Assembly: GCF_002055535.1 (NCBI RefSeq) | Contig: NZ_LN831034.1 | Span: 930,001 to 994,000, forward strand | DNA length: 64,000 bases | Direction: 5' to 3' | Source: Streptococcus pyogenes | Lineage (GTDB): Bacteria > Bacillota > Bacilli > Lactobacillales > Streptococcaceae | Shown here: piece after piece, positions 56,085 through 61,570 of the stretch | Numbering within the stretch: the stretch's first letter is position 1 | Layout of the letters: the number at the start of each line of letters is the position of its first letter | Program-made: the position numbers and the translations under genes | Notes under the pieces: model-generated | Database searches by the model: none | What the model saw: the letters and a program-made list of their open reading frames with translations, nothing else | Told to the model about the DNA's origin: nothing

Positions 56085-57629
56085 TTAGGTTAACTTACTA
56101 AAATCCCAAGTATCGGTTACCCACCCATTGTAGAAATCAGGTTCATGACAAACCATTAAAATAGAACCCTTATATGCTTTTAAAGCACGTTTGAGCTCAT
56201 TTTTAGCATCAATATCAAGATGATTTGTTGGTTCGTCTAAAATAAGCACGTTATTTTCACGATTCATCAACAAACAAAAACGAACTTTTGCTTGTTCACC
56301 ACCCGAAAGTACTTGAATTTGACTTTCGATATGTTTTGATGTTAGTCCGCAACGAGCTAGTGCCGCTCGAACTTCTGCCTGATTTAAGGCAGGAAAAGCA
56401 TCCCAAACTACTTCTAGCGGAGTTTGTCGGTTAACACCTGTCACTTCTTGTTCAAAGTAGCCAACTTCTAAAAAATCCCCTGTGACAATATGACCTTCTA
56501 AAGGCTCAATAACACCTAATAAACTTTTTAGCAAAGTAGATTTTCCAATACCGTTGGCCCCAACAATAGCAATTTTTTGATTTCTTTCAAACGTTATATT
56601 TAAGGGTTCTTTGGTCAATGGGTAATCATAACCAATCACAAGATTTTTTGTTTGAAAAATGAATCGACTGGGAGTTCTAGCTTGCTTAAATTCAAAATTT
56701 GGTTTTGGTTTCTCAGCTTGAAGTTCAATTATATCCATCTTATCAAGTTTTTTTTGGCGAGACATTGCCATGTTACGTGTCGCTACCCGAGCCTTATTTC
56801 GGTTGACAAAATCCTGCAAGTTAGCAATCTCTTTTTGTTGACGTTCATAGGCTGCTTCAAGTTGAGATTGTTTCATCTCATAAACAGCTTGAAATTGGTA
56901 ATAATCCCCAGTATAGCGAACTAAACTTTGATTTTCAACATGATAAACAATATTAATCACATCATTTAAGAAAGAAATATCATGCGAAATCAACACAAAA
57001 GCATTTTCATAATGTTGTAAATAGCGTTTTAACCATTCAATATGCTCAGCATCCAAATGGTTAGTTGGTTCATCTAATAGCAGAATATCAGGTTTTTCTA
57101 ATAGTAATTTGGCTAATAAAACCTTTGTTCGTTGCCCACCTGATAAGGATGTAACATCTGACTCCATTCCAAAATCCATAACACCAAGCGCACGCGCTAC
57201 TTCATCAATCTTAGCATCCAAAGTATAGAAATCACGACTTTCTAAACGATCTTGAAGCTCACCTACTTCTTCCATCAAAACAGCAATATCAGCTTTATCA
57301 TCTGCCATTGACGCGTAAATCTCATTAATACGATTCTCGGTCTTAAATAACTCATCAAAAGCAGTTCGCAAGACATCACGAACGGTTTGTCCTGATTCCA
57401 ACACTGTATGTTGATCCAGGTAACCTGCAGTGACATACTTCGACCACTCTACTTTTCCTTCGTCAGGCTGTAAATGTCCTGTGACTATACTCATAAAGGT
57501 TGATTTTCCTTCACCATTTGCCCCAACTAGTCCAATATGTTCGCCTTTTAAGAGGCGAAATGACACATTTTCAAAAATAGCCCGATCCCCAAAACCGTGA
57601 CTCAACTGCTTAACTTCTAAAATACTCAT
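56085..57629 (-). CDS. ABC-F ATPase (ribosome-associated)
   Basis: The product has 514 residues and two ATPase domains in one chain without membrane helices. Walker A motifs are GANGEGKST near residue 39 and GANGIGKST further on. Signatures are LSGGQRTK and LSGGEQAK, and Walker B are LLLDEPTNHLD twice. The charged linker between them (RKNKAR.../QKKLDKMD region) reaches the ribosomal P-site in this family. ABC-F proteins are translation factors or antibiotic-resistance proteins; this one looks like a housekeeping YkpA/YbiT-type. ATG 57629 is preferred to 57650 and 57665 because AAGGA lies in front and 57665 falls in a hairpin. Confidence 0.88.
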   Translation of the reverse strand: MSILEVKQLSHGFGDRAIFENVSFRLLKGEHIGLVGANGEGKSTFMSIVTGHLQPDEGKVEWSKYVTAGYLDQHTVLESGQTVRDVLRTAFDELFKTENRINEIYASMADDKADIAVLMEEVGELQDRLESRDFYTLDAKIDEVARALGVMDFGMESDVTSLSGGQRTKVLLAKLLLEKPDILLLDEPTNHLDAEHIEWLKRYLQHYENAFVLISHDISFLNDVINIVYHVENQSLVRYTGDYYQFQAVYEMKQSQLEAAYERQQKEIANLQDFVNRNKARVATRNMAMSRQKKLDKMDIIELQAEKPKPNFEFKQARTPSRFIFQTKNLVIGYDYPLTKEPLNITFERNQKIAIVGANGIGKSTLLKSLLGVIEPLEGHIVTGDFLEVGYFEQEVTGVNRQTPLEVVWDAFPALNQAEVRAALARCGLTSKHIESQIQVLSGGEQAKVRFCLLMNRENNVLILDEPTNHLDIDAKNELKRALKAYKGSILMVCHEPDFYNGWVTDTWDFSKLT

Positions 57630-57651
57630 CGTTTCTTCCTTAACTGTCATC

Positions 57652-57676
57652 AAAAAAGCCGTCAAAACGGCTTTAT
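57652..57676 (-). terminator. Hairpin between B6 operon and ABC-F gene, inside ABC-F leader
   Basis: Minus strand AAAGCCGT-TTTG-ACGGCTTT followed by TTTTG. It ends the upstream ECF gene but lies downstream of the ABC-F promoter at 57686-57714. Confidence 0.82.
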
Positions 57677-57685
57677 AGTTATTTC

Positions 57686-57714
57686 ATTATGGCAAAATTG
57701 TAACCTTTTGTCAA
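57686..57714 (-). promoter_or_regulatory. Promoter of ABC-F gene
   Basis: Minus strand TTGACA and CATAAT with 17 bases between. Expected start near 57679, only a few bases before the hairpin. Confidence 0.75.
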
Positions 57715-57762
57715 TATTTGACTAAAAGTGTACCTTGCTTTTTTATCGATAAGGTACTTGTA

Positions 57763-58320
57763 TCAAAAACCTCTTTTTGCTTGTCCGATTGTAACCTTTT
57801 CTTTTAAGTTTTTGATAACAGGATACAAAAGAGGAACAGCAACTAAAGTCACAAAAGATGTTCCGAAACTACCACCAATTTTTCCAAGAGCTACCCAAAA
57901 AGATACCGAAAGTGGTAGCTGAGTACCTATATAAGCTAACAGTAAGTATTTTATAAGGTTAATAGTTAATTTTGACAATGCAGCAATAACTGTTATTGTT
58001 ATAATGGCTTTTGGTTTTTTACTAGATTGCATAGCTCTTTCATATACCAAATGCAAAATTAAACAAATAGCCAAGGATTCTAAGATAGTTATCCAAACGA
58101 CTGAAGCATAGCCGTTCAAAACATCAAAGATCCCTAAACCAAGACTAGCAACTAGAGCTCCTTTTTTACTACCATAGATTAAGACTGCAATAACAACTAA
58201 TGCATTGCCAAGATGAATAAACTGCATACCGACAGGGACACGCAACACTTGTACTGAAATAAAAATTAAAGCGGCATACATACTCAATTCAATATAATTA
58301 GCTAATTTTTGAGATGACAT
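57763..58320 (-). CDS. ECF transporter S component, probably vitamin B6
   Basis: This is a 185-residue membrane protein of about six helices with the S-component look: MQFIHLGNALVVIAVLIYGSKKGAL and GLGIFDVLNGYASVVWITILESL. S components bind vitamins and share an ECF energising module encoded elsewhere. Its gene overlaps the pyridoxal kinase gene by 23 bases, so its substrate is most likely pyridoxal, pyridoxine or pyridoxamine (PdxU2-like). This is context inference. TTGGAGGAAAAAA precedes ATG. Confidence 0.8.
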   Translation of the reverse strand: MSSQKLANYIELSMYAALIFISVQVLRVPVGMQFIHLGNALVVIAVLIYGSKKGALVASLGLGIFDVLNGYASVVWITILESLAICLILHLVYERAMQSSKKPKAIITITVIAALSKLTINLIKYLLLAYIGTQLPLSVSFWVALGKIGGSFGTSFVTLVAVPLLYPVIKNLKEKVTIGQAKRGF

Positions 58321-59164
58321 TTTTTTCCTCCAACAACTTTTTAAACGATTTAGTTAAGTAATTTAAATGAGATTCATAAGCAACACCTAAGATTAAATCT
58401 CTTTTTAATGTAAGGGTATTTTGCAATACTTTTTCAAGAAATGAAACAACAAGATCTAGAATTTGTGTTAGTGGTAGCTGATAATAGAATCCTGCTGTTA
58501 TAATAGCTGATGCTATATCTCCTGTACCATAGAAATGGTAAGGGAATTGCTTCCCAAAATGGAATGTTAATTGATCTGAATCTGACTGATAGTAAGCAAA
58601 ACCAATGCTGCCCTCCTCAAAAGAGATTCCGCTAATGACAACCTGTTTAGGTCCAAGCTTAGCTAATTTTCTAGCCACCTGTCTAATATCTTCTTCATCA
58701 TAATTTTTTGCTAAATAAGCTGTTTGTGTTAATAGACAAGCCTCACTAATATTAGGTAAAACAAGCTCAGCTTTTTGAGTAAGTTTTATCATAATCTCTA
58801 TATGTTTTTGACTGAAGCCTTGATAAAGTTTTCCATTATCTGCCATAATTGGATCTAAAATTAAGGGAAGTTGCTTTCTTGAAAGCCATTCTAGCAGCTT
58901 TTGCCCATCTCTTGTTGTCGTAAAATAACCTATAAAAATGCCGTCAAACTTAATTCTTTTGTTGTCCCAATCTGTTAAAAAAACGTCTAATATACTTGAT
59001 GTAGTATGCTTCACAGGGTTCTGTCCTCCGCCAGTATGGCTTGATAAAAGGCAAGTTGGTAATAAAACTTGCTCTAACAAACAAGAAGCCATTAAAGGAA
59101 TACTAGCAGACAAGGCTACCTTACCAACACCAACCAGATCATTTGCCACAACAATCCGTTTCAT
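58298..59164 (-). CDS. Pyridoxal (pyridoxine/pyridoxamine) kinase
   Basis: A 288-residue ribokinase-superfamily kinase similar to PdxK/PdxY: NDLVGVGKVALSASIPLM at the start, LPTCLLSSHTGG, LDPIMADNGKLY and the catalytic loop YHFYGTGDIASA. It would phosphorylate imported B6 vitamers to trap them and supply PLP, needed by GlyA in this same window. The divergent MocR regulator and overlapping S component make a compact salvage locus. The thiamine-type HMP kinase alternative is less likely. Confidence 0.83.
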   Translation of the reverse strand: MKRIVVANDLVGVGKVALSASIPLMASCLLEQVLLPTCLLSSHTGGGQNPVKHTTSSILDVFLTDWDNKRIKFDGIFIGYFTTTRDGQKLLEWLSRKQLPLILDPIMADNGKLYQGFSQKHIEIMIKLTQKAELVLPNISEACLLTQTAYLAKNYDEEDIRQVARKLAKLGPKQVVISGISFEEGSIGFAYYQSDSDQLTFHFGKQFPYHFYGTGDIASAIITAGFYYQLPLTQILDLVVSFLEKVLQNTLTLKRDLILGVAYESHLNYLTKSFKKLLEEKNVISKIS

Positions 59165-59185
59165 AGCTATTACCTCTTTTCTATA

Positions 59186-59227
59186 ATAACTATTGTAAGA
59201 AAAAGAGGCATAAGATACAATAGTTAT
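59186..59227. promoter_or_regulatory. Inverted repeat forming two overlapping divergent promoters
   Basis: ATAACTATTGTA (59186-59197) and its exact complement (59216-59227) are 18 bases apart. Plus promoter: TTGTAA at 59193 and TACAAT at 59216, 17 apart. Minus promoter: TTGTAT (rc of 59215-59220) and TACAAT (rc of 59192-59197), also 17 apart. The same arms thus serve as -35 on one strand and -10 on the other. Confidence 0.8.
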
Positions 59228-59253
59228 AACACTTAACTGTATGGGGACAATTT

Positions 59254-60522
59254 ATGACAACAAAATATCAAACAATCATTTCCAATATCGAACAAGATAT
59301 CCAGAAACAGCGACTAAAAAAAGGGGACAAGCTACCTTCAATTAGGGTACTAAGTAAGGTTTATTATTGTAGCAAAGATACTGTTCAGCGGGCTCTTTTA
59401 GAATTAAAATATCGTCACTTAATTTATGCTGTTCCTAAAAGTGGTTATTATGTTTTGGGTAACGTAAGCATGCCCGATAATGTTCTTAATCTAAGTCTTG
59501 AAGATTATAATAATATGGCTTATGAAGATTTCCGACTCTGCTTAAATGAGGCCTTAAGTGCTAAAGACAAATACCTCTTTCATTATTATCACAAAACCGA
59601 AGGACTAGAAGAACTAAGGGAAGCTTTGCTTCTTTACTTAGCTGAAAATAGTGTTTACAGTAACAAAGACCAACTATTAATCACCTCTGGGACGCAACAA
59701 GCGCTTTATATTTTATCACAAATGCCTTTTCCTAATACGGGCAAAACAATTCTCCTTGAAAAGCCTACTTATCATCGGATGGAAGCTATTGTTGCTCAGT
59801 TAGGATTACCCTATCAAACTATCTCTAGACACTTTAATGGCCTTGATTTAGAACTCTTAGAATCTTTATTTCAAACTGGCGATATTAAATTTTTTTACAC
59901 GATTTCACGATTTTCACATCCTCTGGGACTTTCTTATAGCACTAAGGAAAAGGAAGCTATTGTTCGTCTAGCACAACGATACCAGGTTTATATTTTAGAA
60001 GATGATTATTTAGGAGATTTTGTGAAACTTAAAGAGCCACCAATTCATTATTATGACACTCATCACCGAATCATCTACCTAAAATCTTTTTCAATGAGTG
60101 TTTTTCCTGCACTCCGTATCGGAGCTCTAGTTTTACCGTCAGGTTTAAAACCTCATTTTTTAACCCAAAAATCATTGATTGATTTAGACACGAACTTACT
60201 AATGCAAAAAGCATTAGCTCTTTATTTAGAAAATGGGATGTTTCAAAAAAATCTTCGCTTTATTAAGCGTTATCTAAAACAGCGGGAACGTCAATTGGCT
60301 CTCTTTTTAAAACAAAATTGCCCTGATATTCACTATCAACTAACCCCTACTCATTTAGTGATTGATTACACGACATCAGACTCTTATAGAAACTTTACAT
60401 TAGATAAATCTGATAGAATAATAATAACTGGAAAAAAACGCTATCTCTCTATTACTATCAATCAACAAATACAAAGCAAATTAAACTCACTAATCAAAAA
60501 TACTTGTGGAAAGAGCAACTAA
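59254..60522 (+). CDS. MocR/PdxR-family regulator lacking the PLP lysine
   Basis: The 422-residue protein has an N-terminal GntR-type winged helix (GDKLPSIRVLSKVYYCSKDTVQRALLEL, from about residue 24) fused to an aminotransferase-fold domain. TSGTQQALYILSQ, EKPTYHRME and ILEDDYLGDF are conserved. The position of the Schiff-base lysine in the usual SFSK motif is Met281 here (YLKSFSMSVFPALRIG). PdxR-type proteins sense PLP or pyridoxal and control B6 genes. Divergence from the kinase/S-component pair supports that role. With no lysine, ligand binding must be non-covalent or altered. Confidence 0.83.
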   Translation: MTTKYQTIISNIEQDIQKQRLKKGDKLPSIRVLSKVYYCSKDTVQRALLELKYRHLIYAVPKSGYYVLGNVSMPDNVLNLSLEDYNNMAYEDFRLCLNEALSAKDKYLFHYYHKTEGLEELREALLLYLAENSVYSNKDQLLITSGTQQALYILSQMPFPNTGKTILLEKPTYHRMEAIVAQLGLPYQTISRHFNGLDLELLESLFQTGDIKFFYTISRFSHPLGLSYSTKEKEAIVRLAQRYQVYILEDDYLGDFVKLKEPPIHYYDTHHRIIYLKSFSMSVFPALRIGALVLPSGLKPHFLTQKSLIDLDTNLLMQKALALYLENGMFQKNLRFIKRYLKQRERQLALFLKQNCPDIHYQLTPTHLVIDYTTSDSYRNFTLDKSDRIIITGKKRYLSITINQQIQSKLNSLIKNTCGKSN

Positions 60523-60919
60523 CTTTTCTTCGTACCATTAATATAAAAAATGGGGATAAATAAGTATTATAAAATCTCTAAAAAGCATGGTTTTGAAATT
60601 AAAAAAACATAATTTTAGACTACTTAAAAATTGGAAACTACTAGCTGTCACTTCGAAGTAGTATTATCCTAGACTGTTTCATTAAGACTAAGGATATAAT
60701 TTATCAAATAAAAGTTTATTCACCTCAACTAAGAAAGGAGGGGAGTTTCCCAAAATGTAGCAAAAAATAAACAGAAAGTTAAACTAAAGCTTGAATGCTT
60801 AAGTTCTATGTAATATAGAATACACCTAATAGTAGCAAAAAAATACCTAACAGATTTTTATCTGTTAGGTATTTAAACCTTATCCCCTCAAAGACACTAA
60901 AATGCCATTAGAAGCGTTT
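60523..60919. other. Gap of about 400 bases without a gene
   Basis: AT-rich, no open frame of note. A GAAAGGAGGGGAG motif near 60735 is followed by ATG-TAG only. The hairpin at 60834-60874 is the only clear element. Confidence 0.55.
60834..60874 (-). terminator. Terminator after the ATP-cone gene
   Basis: Minus strand AAATACCTAACAGA and TCTGTTAGGTATTT form a 14-bp perfect stem followed by a T run. Confidence 0.85.
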
Positions 60920-61276
60920 TTATTTTATTTGTTCAAAACGCAAGTGAACCACAATCTTATCACCATAGCCATTGCGCTCTAAATCTCGCTGAAGACGATA
61001 AGAAATGTAATGTTCTGCAATGGTAATATATCCAGCATCCATCAAACGATTCTCCACAAGGGATTGGACCATATTGATAGTAGGACGTTCTACATGTGCT
61101 TCTTCTAAATCAATAACTACTTTTTTAGTGACATGTGTTAAGTTTTGTCGCCACGTGTCATCAATAACATAGACCGTCCTTGCTGCTTTAATAATTGCTT
61201 GATAAATTTTATCTGGATCAAAATCAGCAACGTGGCCATCACGCTTAATAATTTGCATAAGATCATCTCTTTTCAT
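60920..61276 (-). CDS. Orphan ATP-cone domain protein
   Basis: The 118-residue protein consists of little more than one ATP-cone: MQIIKRDGHVADFDPDKIYQAIIKAA near the start, then VERPTINMVQSLVENRLMDAG and HYISYRLQRDLER. ATP-cones are the allosteric nucleotide-binding modules of ribonucleotide reductases and of NrdR. Here there is neither a catalytic domain nor the NrdR zinc ribbon. The second Met (61258) is an alternative start. It has its own near-consensus promoter with an internal inverted repeat. It may sense ATP/dATP and act on a partner. Confidence 0.78.
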   Translation of the reverse strand: MKRDDLMQIIKRDGHVADFDPDKIYQAIIKAARTVYVIDDTWRQNLTHVTKKVVIDLEEAHVERPTINMVQSLVENRLMDAGYITIAEHYISYRLQRDLERNGYGDKIVVHLRFEQIK

Positions 61277-61296
61277 AAGTTTTCATCTCTACCTAC

Positions 61297-61325
61297 ATTA
61301 TGCAAATGTTATTAGCATTTGTCAA
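61297..61325 (-). promoter_or_regulatory. Promoter of the ATP-cone gene with CAAATG inverted repeat
   Basis: Minus strand TTGACA and CATAAT, 17 apart. The spacer contains CAAATG-N7-CATTTG, a candidate operator. Confidence 0.78.
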
Positions 61326-61414
61326 GTCATAGCACTCATACCCGAAAAACTACTTTCTTATTTTGAAACACAGTAATCACTGATACATTCTGAATTTTAA
61401 CTAAGATAATAAAA

Positions 61415-61444
61415 TTAAAAAAAGGATTGAGAATATCTCAATCC
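61415..61444 (-). terminator. Terminator of the candidate small RNA
   Basis: Minus strand GGATTGAGA-TAT-TCTCAATCC followed by TTTTTTT. Confidence 0.88.
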
Positions 61445-61570
61445 AAGGGGCATTCTTAATAAATAAGATTGTGATAAAATGGTTCACACAGATTATCAAA
61501 GTCGGCTTCCCGCCTTAATGACCTCCCCTGCGCAAAAGTGACTTTGCAGTCACAATCGACTCATCGCATA
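61417..61570 (-). ncRNA. Candidate structured small RNA, about 154 bases
   Basis: The element has its own promoter and terminator. On the minus strand GTGACT-GCAA-AGTCAC makes a 6-bp stem with a GNRA loop. Two alternative helices compete with it: GATTGTGA with TCACAATC, and AAAGTC with GACTTT. AGGGG and CCCCT can also pair, and GCGCAGGGGAGG is purine-rich like a Shine-Dalgarno region. No open frame of more than a few codons follows it. I do not recognise the family; it is not SRP RNA, RNase P RNA or tmRNA by their hallmarks. Confidence 0.6.

Follow-up and report, generated by a model that had tools for sequence, protein, structure and literature searches.

The pdxR gene of Streptococcus pyogenes, which encodes a vitamin B6 regulator, diverges from pdxK and pdxU, and a perfect inverted repeat lies between the two transcription units. 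The question raised by this locus is what reads that repeat. The earlier note on this DNA offered two answers together, namely that the arms build two face-to-face promoters and that they serve as a dimer operator for the regulator. The genes are listed in coordinates of the window, the whole stretch of 64,000 nucleotides that was analysed:

57763..58320, minus strand: pdxU, ECF transporter S component (PF07155, 51.3 bits), overlapping the end of pdxK
58298..59164, minus strand: pdxK, pyridoxamine/pyridoxal kinase (NF005491, 392 bits, cut-off 231)
59254..60522, plus strand: pdxR, regulator with GntR DNA-binding and aminotransferase-like domains and with Met281 in place of the canonical PLP lysine

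Both domains of a MocR protein are found in the regulator (PF00392, 42 bits, cut-off 27; PF00155, 64.1 bits, cut-off 19.7). The NCBIfam model for PdxR (NF052282) is still its best family at 219.2 bits, which is below the curated cut-off of 320. The linkage to B6 genes expected of a PdxR is seen here, and control of those genes has been published. The locus is apparently the same as the pdxR-pdxKU divergon of S. pyogenes (Davis et al. 2024, PMC11619246), as two primers from that study match the window exactly by eye. The available portion of that paper describes the direction of regulation and leaves promoters, start sites and operator unmapped; these are predicted here. PdxR regulons with pdxST, pdxK and pdxU have also been predicted, including that of S. 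mutans PdxR (PMC5320631).

The repeat and the two promoters read from it are arranged as follows:

59186..59197, no strand: left arm of the inverted repeat, ATAACTATTGTA, with the conserved core ATTGTA at 59192-59197
59192..59197, minus strand: pdxKU promoter -10, TACAAT, at 17-nt spacing; predicted start near 59185, leader of ~21 nt
59193..59198, plus strand: pdxR promoter -35, TTGTAA, 17 nt before the -10
59215..59220, minus strand: pdxKU promoter -35, TTGTAT, 16 nt from the box described below, as at targets elsewhere in other genomes
59216..59221, plus strand: pdxR promoter -10, TACAAT, read from the sequence; predicted start near 59228
59216..59227, no strand: right arm of the inverted repeat, TACAATAGTTAT, with the conserved core TACAAT at 59216-59221

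The arms are complementary at 12/12 bp (100%), with 18 nt between them, and their centres lie 30 bp apart, as previously stated. Reading the sequence also bears out that each arm supplies a -35 on one strand and a -10 on the other, both promoters having 17-nt spacing. A perfect 12-bp repeat with a loop of 4-40 occurs in 0.07% of 100,000 Markov sequences matched to the intergenic region in length and composition, and the core ATTGTA-N18-TACAAT arises by chance 3 times per 100,000 (200,000 Markov sequences). On these simulations, chance alone is rejected as the origin of the repeat. The core has a single occurrence in the window's own genome. When overlapping shifts are included, the whole window contains 49 perfect 12-bp pairs with a loop of 4-40, whereas 40 Markov windows averaged 0.25, so that a perfect repeat is in itself nothing unusual for this genome; a likely source is terminator stems. 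A generic promoter scan of this AT-rich stretch returned 15 sites where 16.6 were expected in shuffles, listing the rightward pair at 9/12 consensus bases and leaving the leftward pair, which has 8/12 by eye, unlisted. With the scan at chance level and repeats common in the window, the case can rest on neither, and the evidence is comparative. A further rightward candidate, TATAAT at 59182-59187 with TTCATA, was rejected, since by eye it is not conserved in relatives such as L003.

For the comparison, pdxR loci were gathered from 197 genomes of the genus (30 and 60 more loci, giving 90) and from named records (80 loci, 79 used), and dropping repeats of the same upstream-plus-protein pair left 135. 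A partner was defined as a divergent pdxK or ECF-S gene starting 20-320 nt upstream. The core ATTGTA-N18-TACAAT is present in 43/43 loci with an adjacent divergent partner (34 pdxK, 9 ECF-S) and in 5/92 others, and its spacer is 18 in all 48 cores, where 12-24 was allowed. As the ECF-S queries came from three repeat-carrying loci, the 9 ECF-S partners are not independent; the independent count is that for pdxK partners alone, 34/34. In each of the 43 partner loci the -35 and -10 predicted for one promoter coincide with the -10 and -35 predicted for the other. Shared ancestry of the loci also means that raw Fisher values make the evidence look stronger than it is. On a quick protein tree with long branches, the partner changes 13 times and the core 11 times; of 7 independent pairs on this tree, an average of 6.4 show the core following the partner and none shows it opposing the partner (median p 0.03).

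Presence of the repeat in orthologous loci was the refutation test that the earlier note had set itself, and the repeat is found there, and outside the genus as well. The 12-base length did not carry over: perfect in the window, the repeat is reduced across loci to ATTGTA/TACAAT and about one flanking base, and the outer arm is not conserved. Five no-partner loci keep the repeat, namely L002, L060, L065, L168 (named S. intermedius) and L174 (named S. anginosus). L002 has an upstream co-directional ORF that is transposase-like by eye, and a pdxK-like segment begins 1,311 bp away. In the other four, the nearest divergent ORF (MERK..KKSVVATGLAATTIISG) is no recognised B6 gene, yet the repeat is kept; there it is either a relic or serves an unrecognised target. 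In four loci (L022, L023, L028 and L146, the last named S. vestibularis) the divergent strand carries an ECF-S gene paired with pdxK, ~830 nt from pdxR and with another ORF in between; these loci were counted as no-partner, and they lack the repeat.

What the partner demands of the sequence can be seen base by base. A position test was run on the loci with a recognised box (41/43 partner loci and 46/87 no-partner loci, the remaining 41/87 no-partner loci falling outside the test), using a score that favours a 17-nt spacer. The 46 no-partner loci keep the pdxR promoter and not the palindrome, with the best hexamer pair 17 nt apart, the spacing that the score favours. Their hexamers drift, the -10 being TAAAAT, TACAAT, TATACT or TAGAAT and the -35 TTGTCA and others. 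The A before the rightward -35, which is used only by the leftward -10, is present in 41/41 partner loci as opposed to 3/46 no-partner loci, and C stands at position 3 of the -10 in 41/41 as opposed to 14/46. In L004, which has no pdxK in the stretch examined, TTGTAA is kept and that A is replaced by G.

These counts bear on the reading that only pdxR has its promoter here, with pdxKU starting elsewhere and the repeat being chance or a relic. The low consensus of the leftward pair, its absence from the scan and the five loci that keep the repeat with no adjacent partner gene would all fit such a reading. It is nevertheless highly improbable, given the near-perfect association of the repeat with a divergent partner, the conservation of a base that only the leftward -10 would use, the 16-nt rule (below) common to divergent loci and other targets, and the little room left in the window between the repeat and the pdxK start codon. 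The comparison of loci thus supports the claim that pdxR and pdxKU have two fully overlapping divergent promoters drawn from the same hexamers.

The shape of the repeat is then a matter of arithmetic. Only one hexamer, TACAAT, can in this register read as TAnnnT (-10) on one strand and carry TTG (-35) on the other strand, and an inverted repeat is the result. A simple count of consensus matches puts ATTGTAA in the top four of the 1,024 double-duty 7-mers that keep the two key -10 bases. The palindrome therefore looks like a by-product of double use, and no protein reading it as a palindrome would be needed. That the repeat is a shared promoter core rather than a regulator site is supported by comparison and by this logic, as judged from sequence. 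We consider it quite likely that the two divergent promoters overlap completely, with the repeat as their common core, and that PdxR sits on a neighbouring dyad. From the geometry we also infer, on sound grounds, that polymerase can be engaged in one direction at a time. In their main texts, two streptococcal start-site papers do not mention pdx.

The neighbouring dyad lies between the repeat and pdxR:

59221..59236, no strand: gap of 16 nt between the box and the pdxKU -35, the distance at which the promoter score peaks
59237..59250, no strand: probable PdxR operator, CTGTATGGGGACAA (consensus CTGTAYGGGGACAG), recognised by its occurrence and by the distance rule

GntR-type dyads follow the rule GT-N6-AC, and the box is such a dyad, found in both orientations. 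Relative to the predicted starts, it should span about +10 to +23 of pdxR and have its centre near -58 of pdxKU, and the GGGG of the pdxR ribosome-binding region falls within it. CTGTAYGGGGACAG stands 15 nt after the right arm in 40/43 partner loci, one further locus having 14 and two having variant boxes at 15 by eye, while in no-partner loci with a box this gap varies from 8 to 19. The window's genome has a single copy of the box in a 12-base form. Across the genus there are 122 sites in 95/197 genomes, against 11 for a reversed control pattern. Among the matches listed, 40 further sites that do not adjoin a pdxR match were fetched, with eight more such sites left out; 29 of the 40 face truA (20), pdxS (4), pdxK (4) or thiD (1), and three precede the MocR gene of their own genome (L095, L108 and L119). 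At the other eight (L093, L100, L103, L109, L112, L121, L126 and L130) no B6 gene was recognised, and these may be chance matches.

The distance between box and promoter is the same at both kinds of locus. The promoter score, averaged over loci, is highest at a distance of 16 nt from the box (8.31 in the 29 targets, 8.28 in the 43 divergent loci), and outside 15-17 nt no distance up to 44 exceeds a mean score of 4.9. At 24/29 targets neither 15 nor 17 nt outscores 16 nt, the exceptions being L094, L097, L110, L122 and L127. Where pdxK is unlinked to pdxR, its promoter is TTGAAA-17-TACAAT in 4/4, an ordinary one-way promoter. From its occurrence and the distance rule, CTGTAYGGGGACAG is probably the PdxR binding site; the box may already stand among the supplementary motifs of PMC5320631.

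The truA sites are the most numerous of these (L094, L096-L099, L104-L106, L110, L113, L114, L117, L118, L120, L122, L127-L129, L131 and L132), and in the six truA loci that were read further a thiD-like kinase lies behind truA. Going by the sequences, this suggests a second B6-linked operon which includes a tRNA pseudouridine synthase.

The same sites weigh on the proposal that the arms themselves are the PdxR operator, a dimer site of inverted half-sites 30 bp apart whose likeness to promoters is secondary. The repeats bound by MocR regulators are often separated by a whole number of helical turns, and a pair of inverted boxes is among the known types of motif (PMC5320631). In S. pyogenes, PdxR has been said to bind, probably, an unnamed inverted repeat in PpdxKU (PMC11619246). 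The six-base cores are also invariant in 40 aligned loci, by construction, since those loci were chosen by the core, and invariance is already explained by double use. At the 40 further box sites, including those of 4 pdxK, 4 pdxS and 20 truA genes, the repeat is absent from all 40, and what the 29 B6-linked targets among them retain is another dyad, lying at a nearly constant distance from the promoter, which tells against the dimer operator of the earlier note. Where no-partner loci have the box, the pdxR promoter is kept and the arms are lost. A regulator on both arms would moreover cover all promoter elements and could hardly activate pdxKU. We regard this proposal as very doubtful.

A variant of it joins both arms and the CTGTA of the box into one composite MocR site of three boxes, two direct and one inverted half-site, each with a TGTA core. 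Such a layout is the commonest predicted MocR arrangement (PMC5320631, Table 2), and the gap of 15 between right arm and box in 40/43 loci would suit it. The 16-nt rule, obeyed also by targets that have no arms, accounts for this constancy equally well, and the box by itself forms a dyad that occurs in both orientations. We regard the composite site, too, as very doubtful, and prefer the shared promoter core with PdxR on the neighbouring dyad.

How the shared core would be regulated can be compared with published measurements. In reporter assays PdxR activates pdxKU ~5-fold in the absence of B6, and it represses pdxR ~1.5-fold whether B6 is present or not (PMC11619246). RT-qPCR gave ~2-fold activation of pdxK and no drop in pdxK transcript with B6 (PMC11619246). 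The two data sets disagree, the reporters responding to B6 vitamers in the medium and RT-qPCR not (PMC11619246). The plasmid that restored the pdxK transcript starts at 59165 by its primer, placed by matching it to the window sequence by eye, and this leaves 89 bp upstream of pdxR (PMC11619246). The earlier suggestion of a switch set by B6 status fits the published reporter data in part.

In the mechanism that we propose, PdxR would occupy the dyad, whose edge lies 16 bp upstream of the pdxKU -35, and at low B6 would help RNA polymerase to sit leftward. A leftward polymerase would occupy every element of the pdxR promoter, and bound PdxR, lying just downstream of the predicted pdxR start, would also block the path of pdxR transcription. 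Through this occupancy and this block, activation of pdxKU and autorepression of pdxR would be coupled, the direction of regulation being that published for S. pyogenes. Five bidirectional promoters tested in E. coli had too little basal transcription for the two directions to compete, and competition emerged when one direction was strongly activated (PMC12825309). An activator centred at -60.5 on a semi-synthetic bidirectional promoter silenced the other direction by polymerase competition (PMC12825309). A PLP-responsive 5' leader has been suggested for pdxKU (PMC11619246). With the leftward start predicted near 59185, the pdxK leader would be ~21 nt, leaving little room for such an element.

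Several known systems resemble this arrangement. In the Pc/Pr promoters of pLS20, the divergent -10 and -35 boxes are inferred to coincide exactly and a regulator chooses between directions (Ramachandran et al. 2014, PMC4207663). There, however, the favoured Pr has weak boxes, and sites for the regulator lie both within and beside the core promoters, overlapping and flanking them (PMC4207663), whereas at the pdxR locus the overlap gives a palindrome and the probable activator site lies to one side. The bidirectional promoters of E. coli are alike in that a short sequence binds polymerase either way and activation can silence the opposite direction (Warman et al. 2026, PMC12825309). Promoters of that type have one shared -10 and starts 7-25 bp apart (PMC10268837), which differs from the exchanged -10 and -35 elements and predicted starts ~43 bp apart found here. 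What was already known is the locus and its control by PdxR in S. pyogenes (PMC11619246), as well as the coinciding divergent promoters inferred for pLS20. Set against the literature searched, what is new is the forced palindrome, the positioning rule and the depth of their conservation. A likeness may also be drawn to E. coli bioA/bioBFCD, which we take to be overlapping divergent promoters of vitamin genes under one regulator; presumably that regulator is a repressor covering both promoters, whereas the regulator of the pdxR locus activates one.

The arrangement extends beyond streptococci. Searches of 395 genomes from the order and 398 from the class for a composite of the arms and the start of the box, with a gap of 14-16 allowed, matched 15 and 6 genomes respectively, five being common to both, with zero control hits. 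Nine genomes with the composite lie outside the genus, and the gap is 15 in all nine. In four, all from one genus of another family, it stands beside pdxK (one checked, the rest by likeness). In the other five its neighbours are EamA-like transporters, recognised by Pfam in one genome and by likeness in the remainder; of these genomes, four belong to a genus of a further family and one to another order. The box is CTGTACCGGTACAG in seven of the nine and ends CAA in two. In these relatives it lies ahead of the start codon and is a palindrome, perfect or nearly so. As the box in the window shares bases with the ribosome-binding GGGG of pdxR, its streptococcal form may reflect a trade-off with translation.

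The sensor side of these regulators varies too. The PLP Schiff-base lysine is conserved in all MocR clusters studied (PMC6677901). The regulator in the window aligns gap-free to GabR and to aminotransferases over the lysine motif, placing Met281 at the position of the PLP lysine, and lysine is found there in 0/135 streptococcal PdxR proteins. Lys277, four residues before canonical position 281, is present in 134/135. The aspartate and arginine that we take to contact PLP, at its nitrogen and on its phosphate side respectively, are kept in 135/135. Outside the genus, the five EamA-linked regulators have the lysine and the four pdxK-linked ones have serine. A literature search on missing MocR lysines returned, by title, nothing on streptococci.

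A broader reading, which we offer tentatively, is that of a polymerase-orientation switch across Bacilli, in which a MocR protein at a fixed site would pick the direction of polymerase on a palindromic core, so that regulator and target are made in turn. The partners would be pdxK, ECF S components and EamA-like transporters. The pdxK-linked regulators, of streptococci and of the four genomes of another family, do without the lysine that the five EamA-linked ones keep, and in them PLP would perhaps be a freely exchanging ligand.

For the reading of such sequences, a conserved DNA palindrome would here be explained without a palindrome-reading protein, as each base serves two promoters. This is a caution for motif finders, by which such a repeat would be called an operator. 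A simple positioning rule is offered across several B6 genes, and a probable PdxR site is placed at a locus important for streptococcal survival in blood (PMC11619246). With the PLP lysine missing, how these regulators sense B6 becomes directly testable.

Around the locus, a search for known RNA elements over 57500-61500 gave none at the pdxR-pdxK junction at E <= 1, the only hits being the MarS sRNA and a weak fungal match. MarS (Rfam RF01732) lies at 61419-61569 on the minus strand (113.8 bits, gathering score 84). Between it and pdxR, at 60920-61276 on the minus strand, is a gene for a 118-aa protein that is little more than an ATP-cone domain (PF03477, 71.5 bits), and sequence similar to it by eye is present in the pdxR loci L005, L007 and L009.
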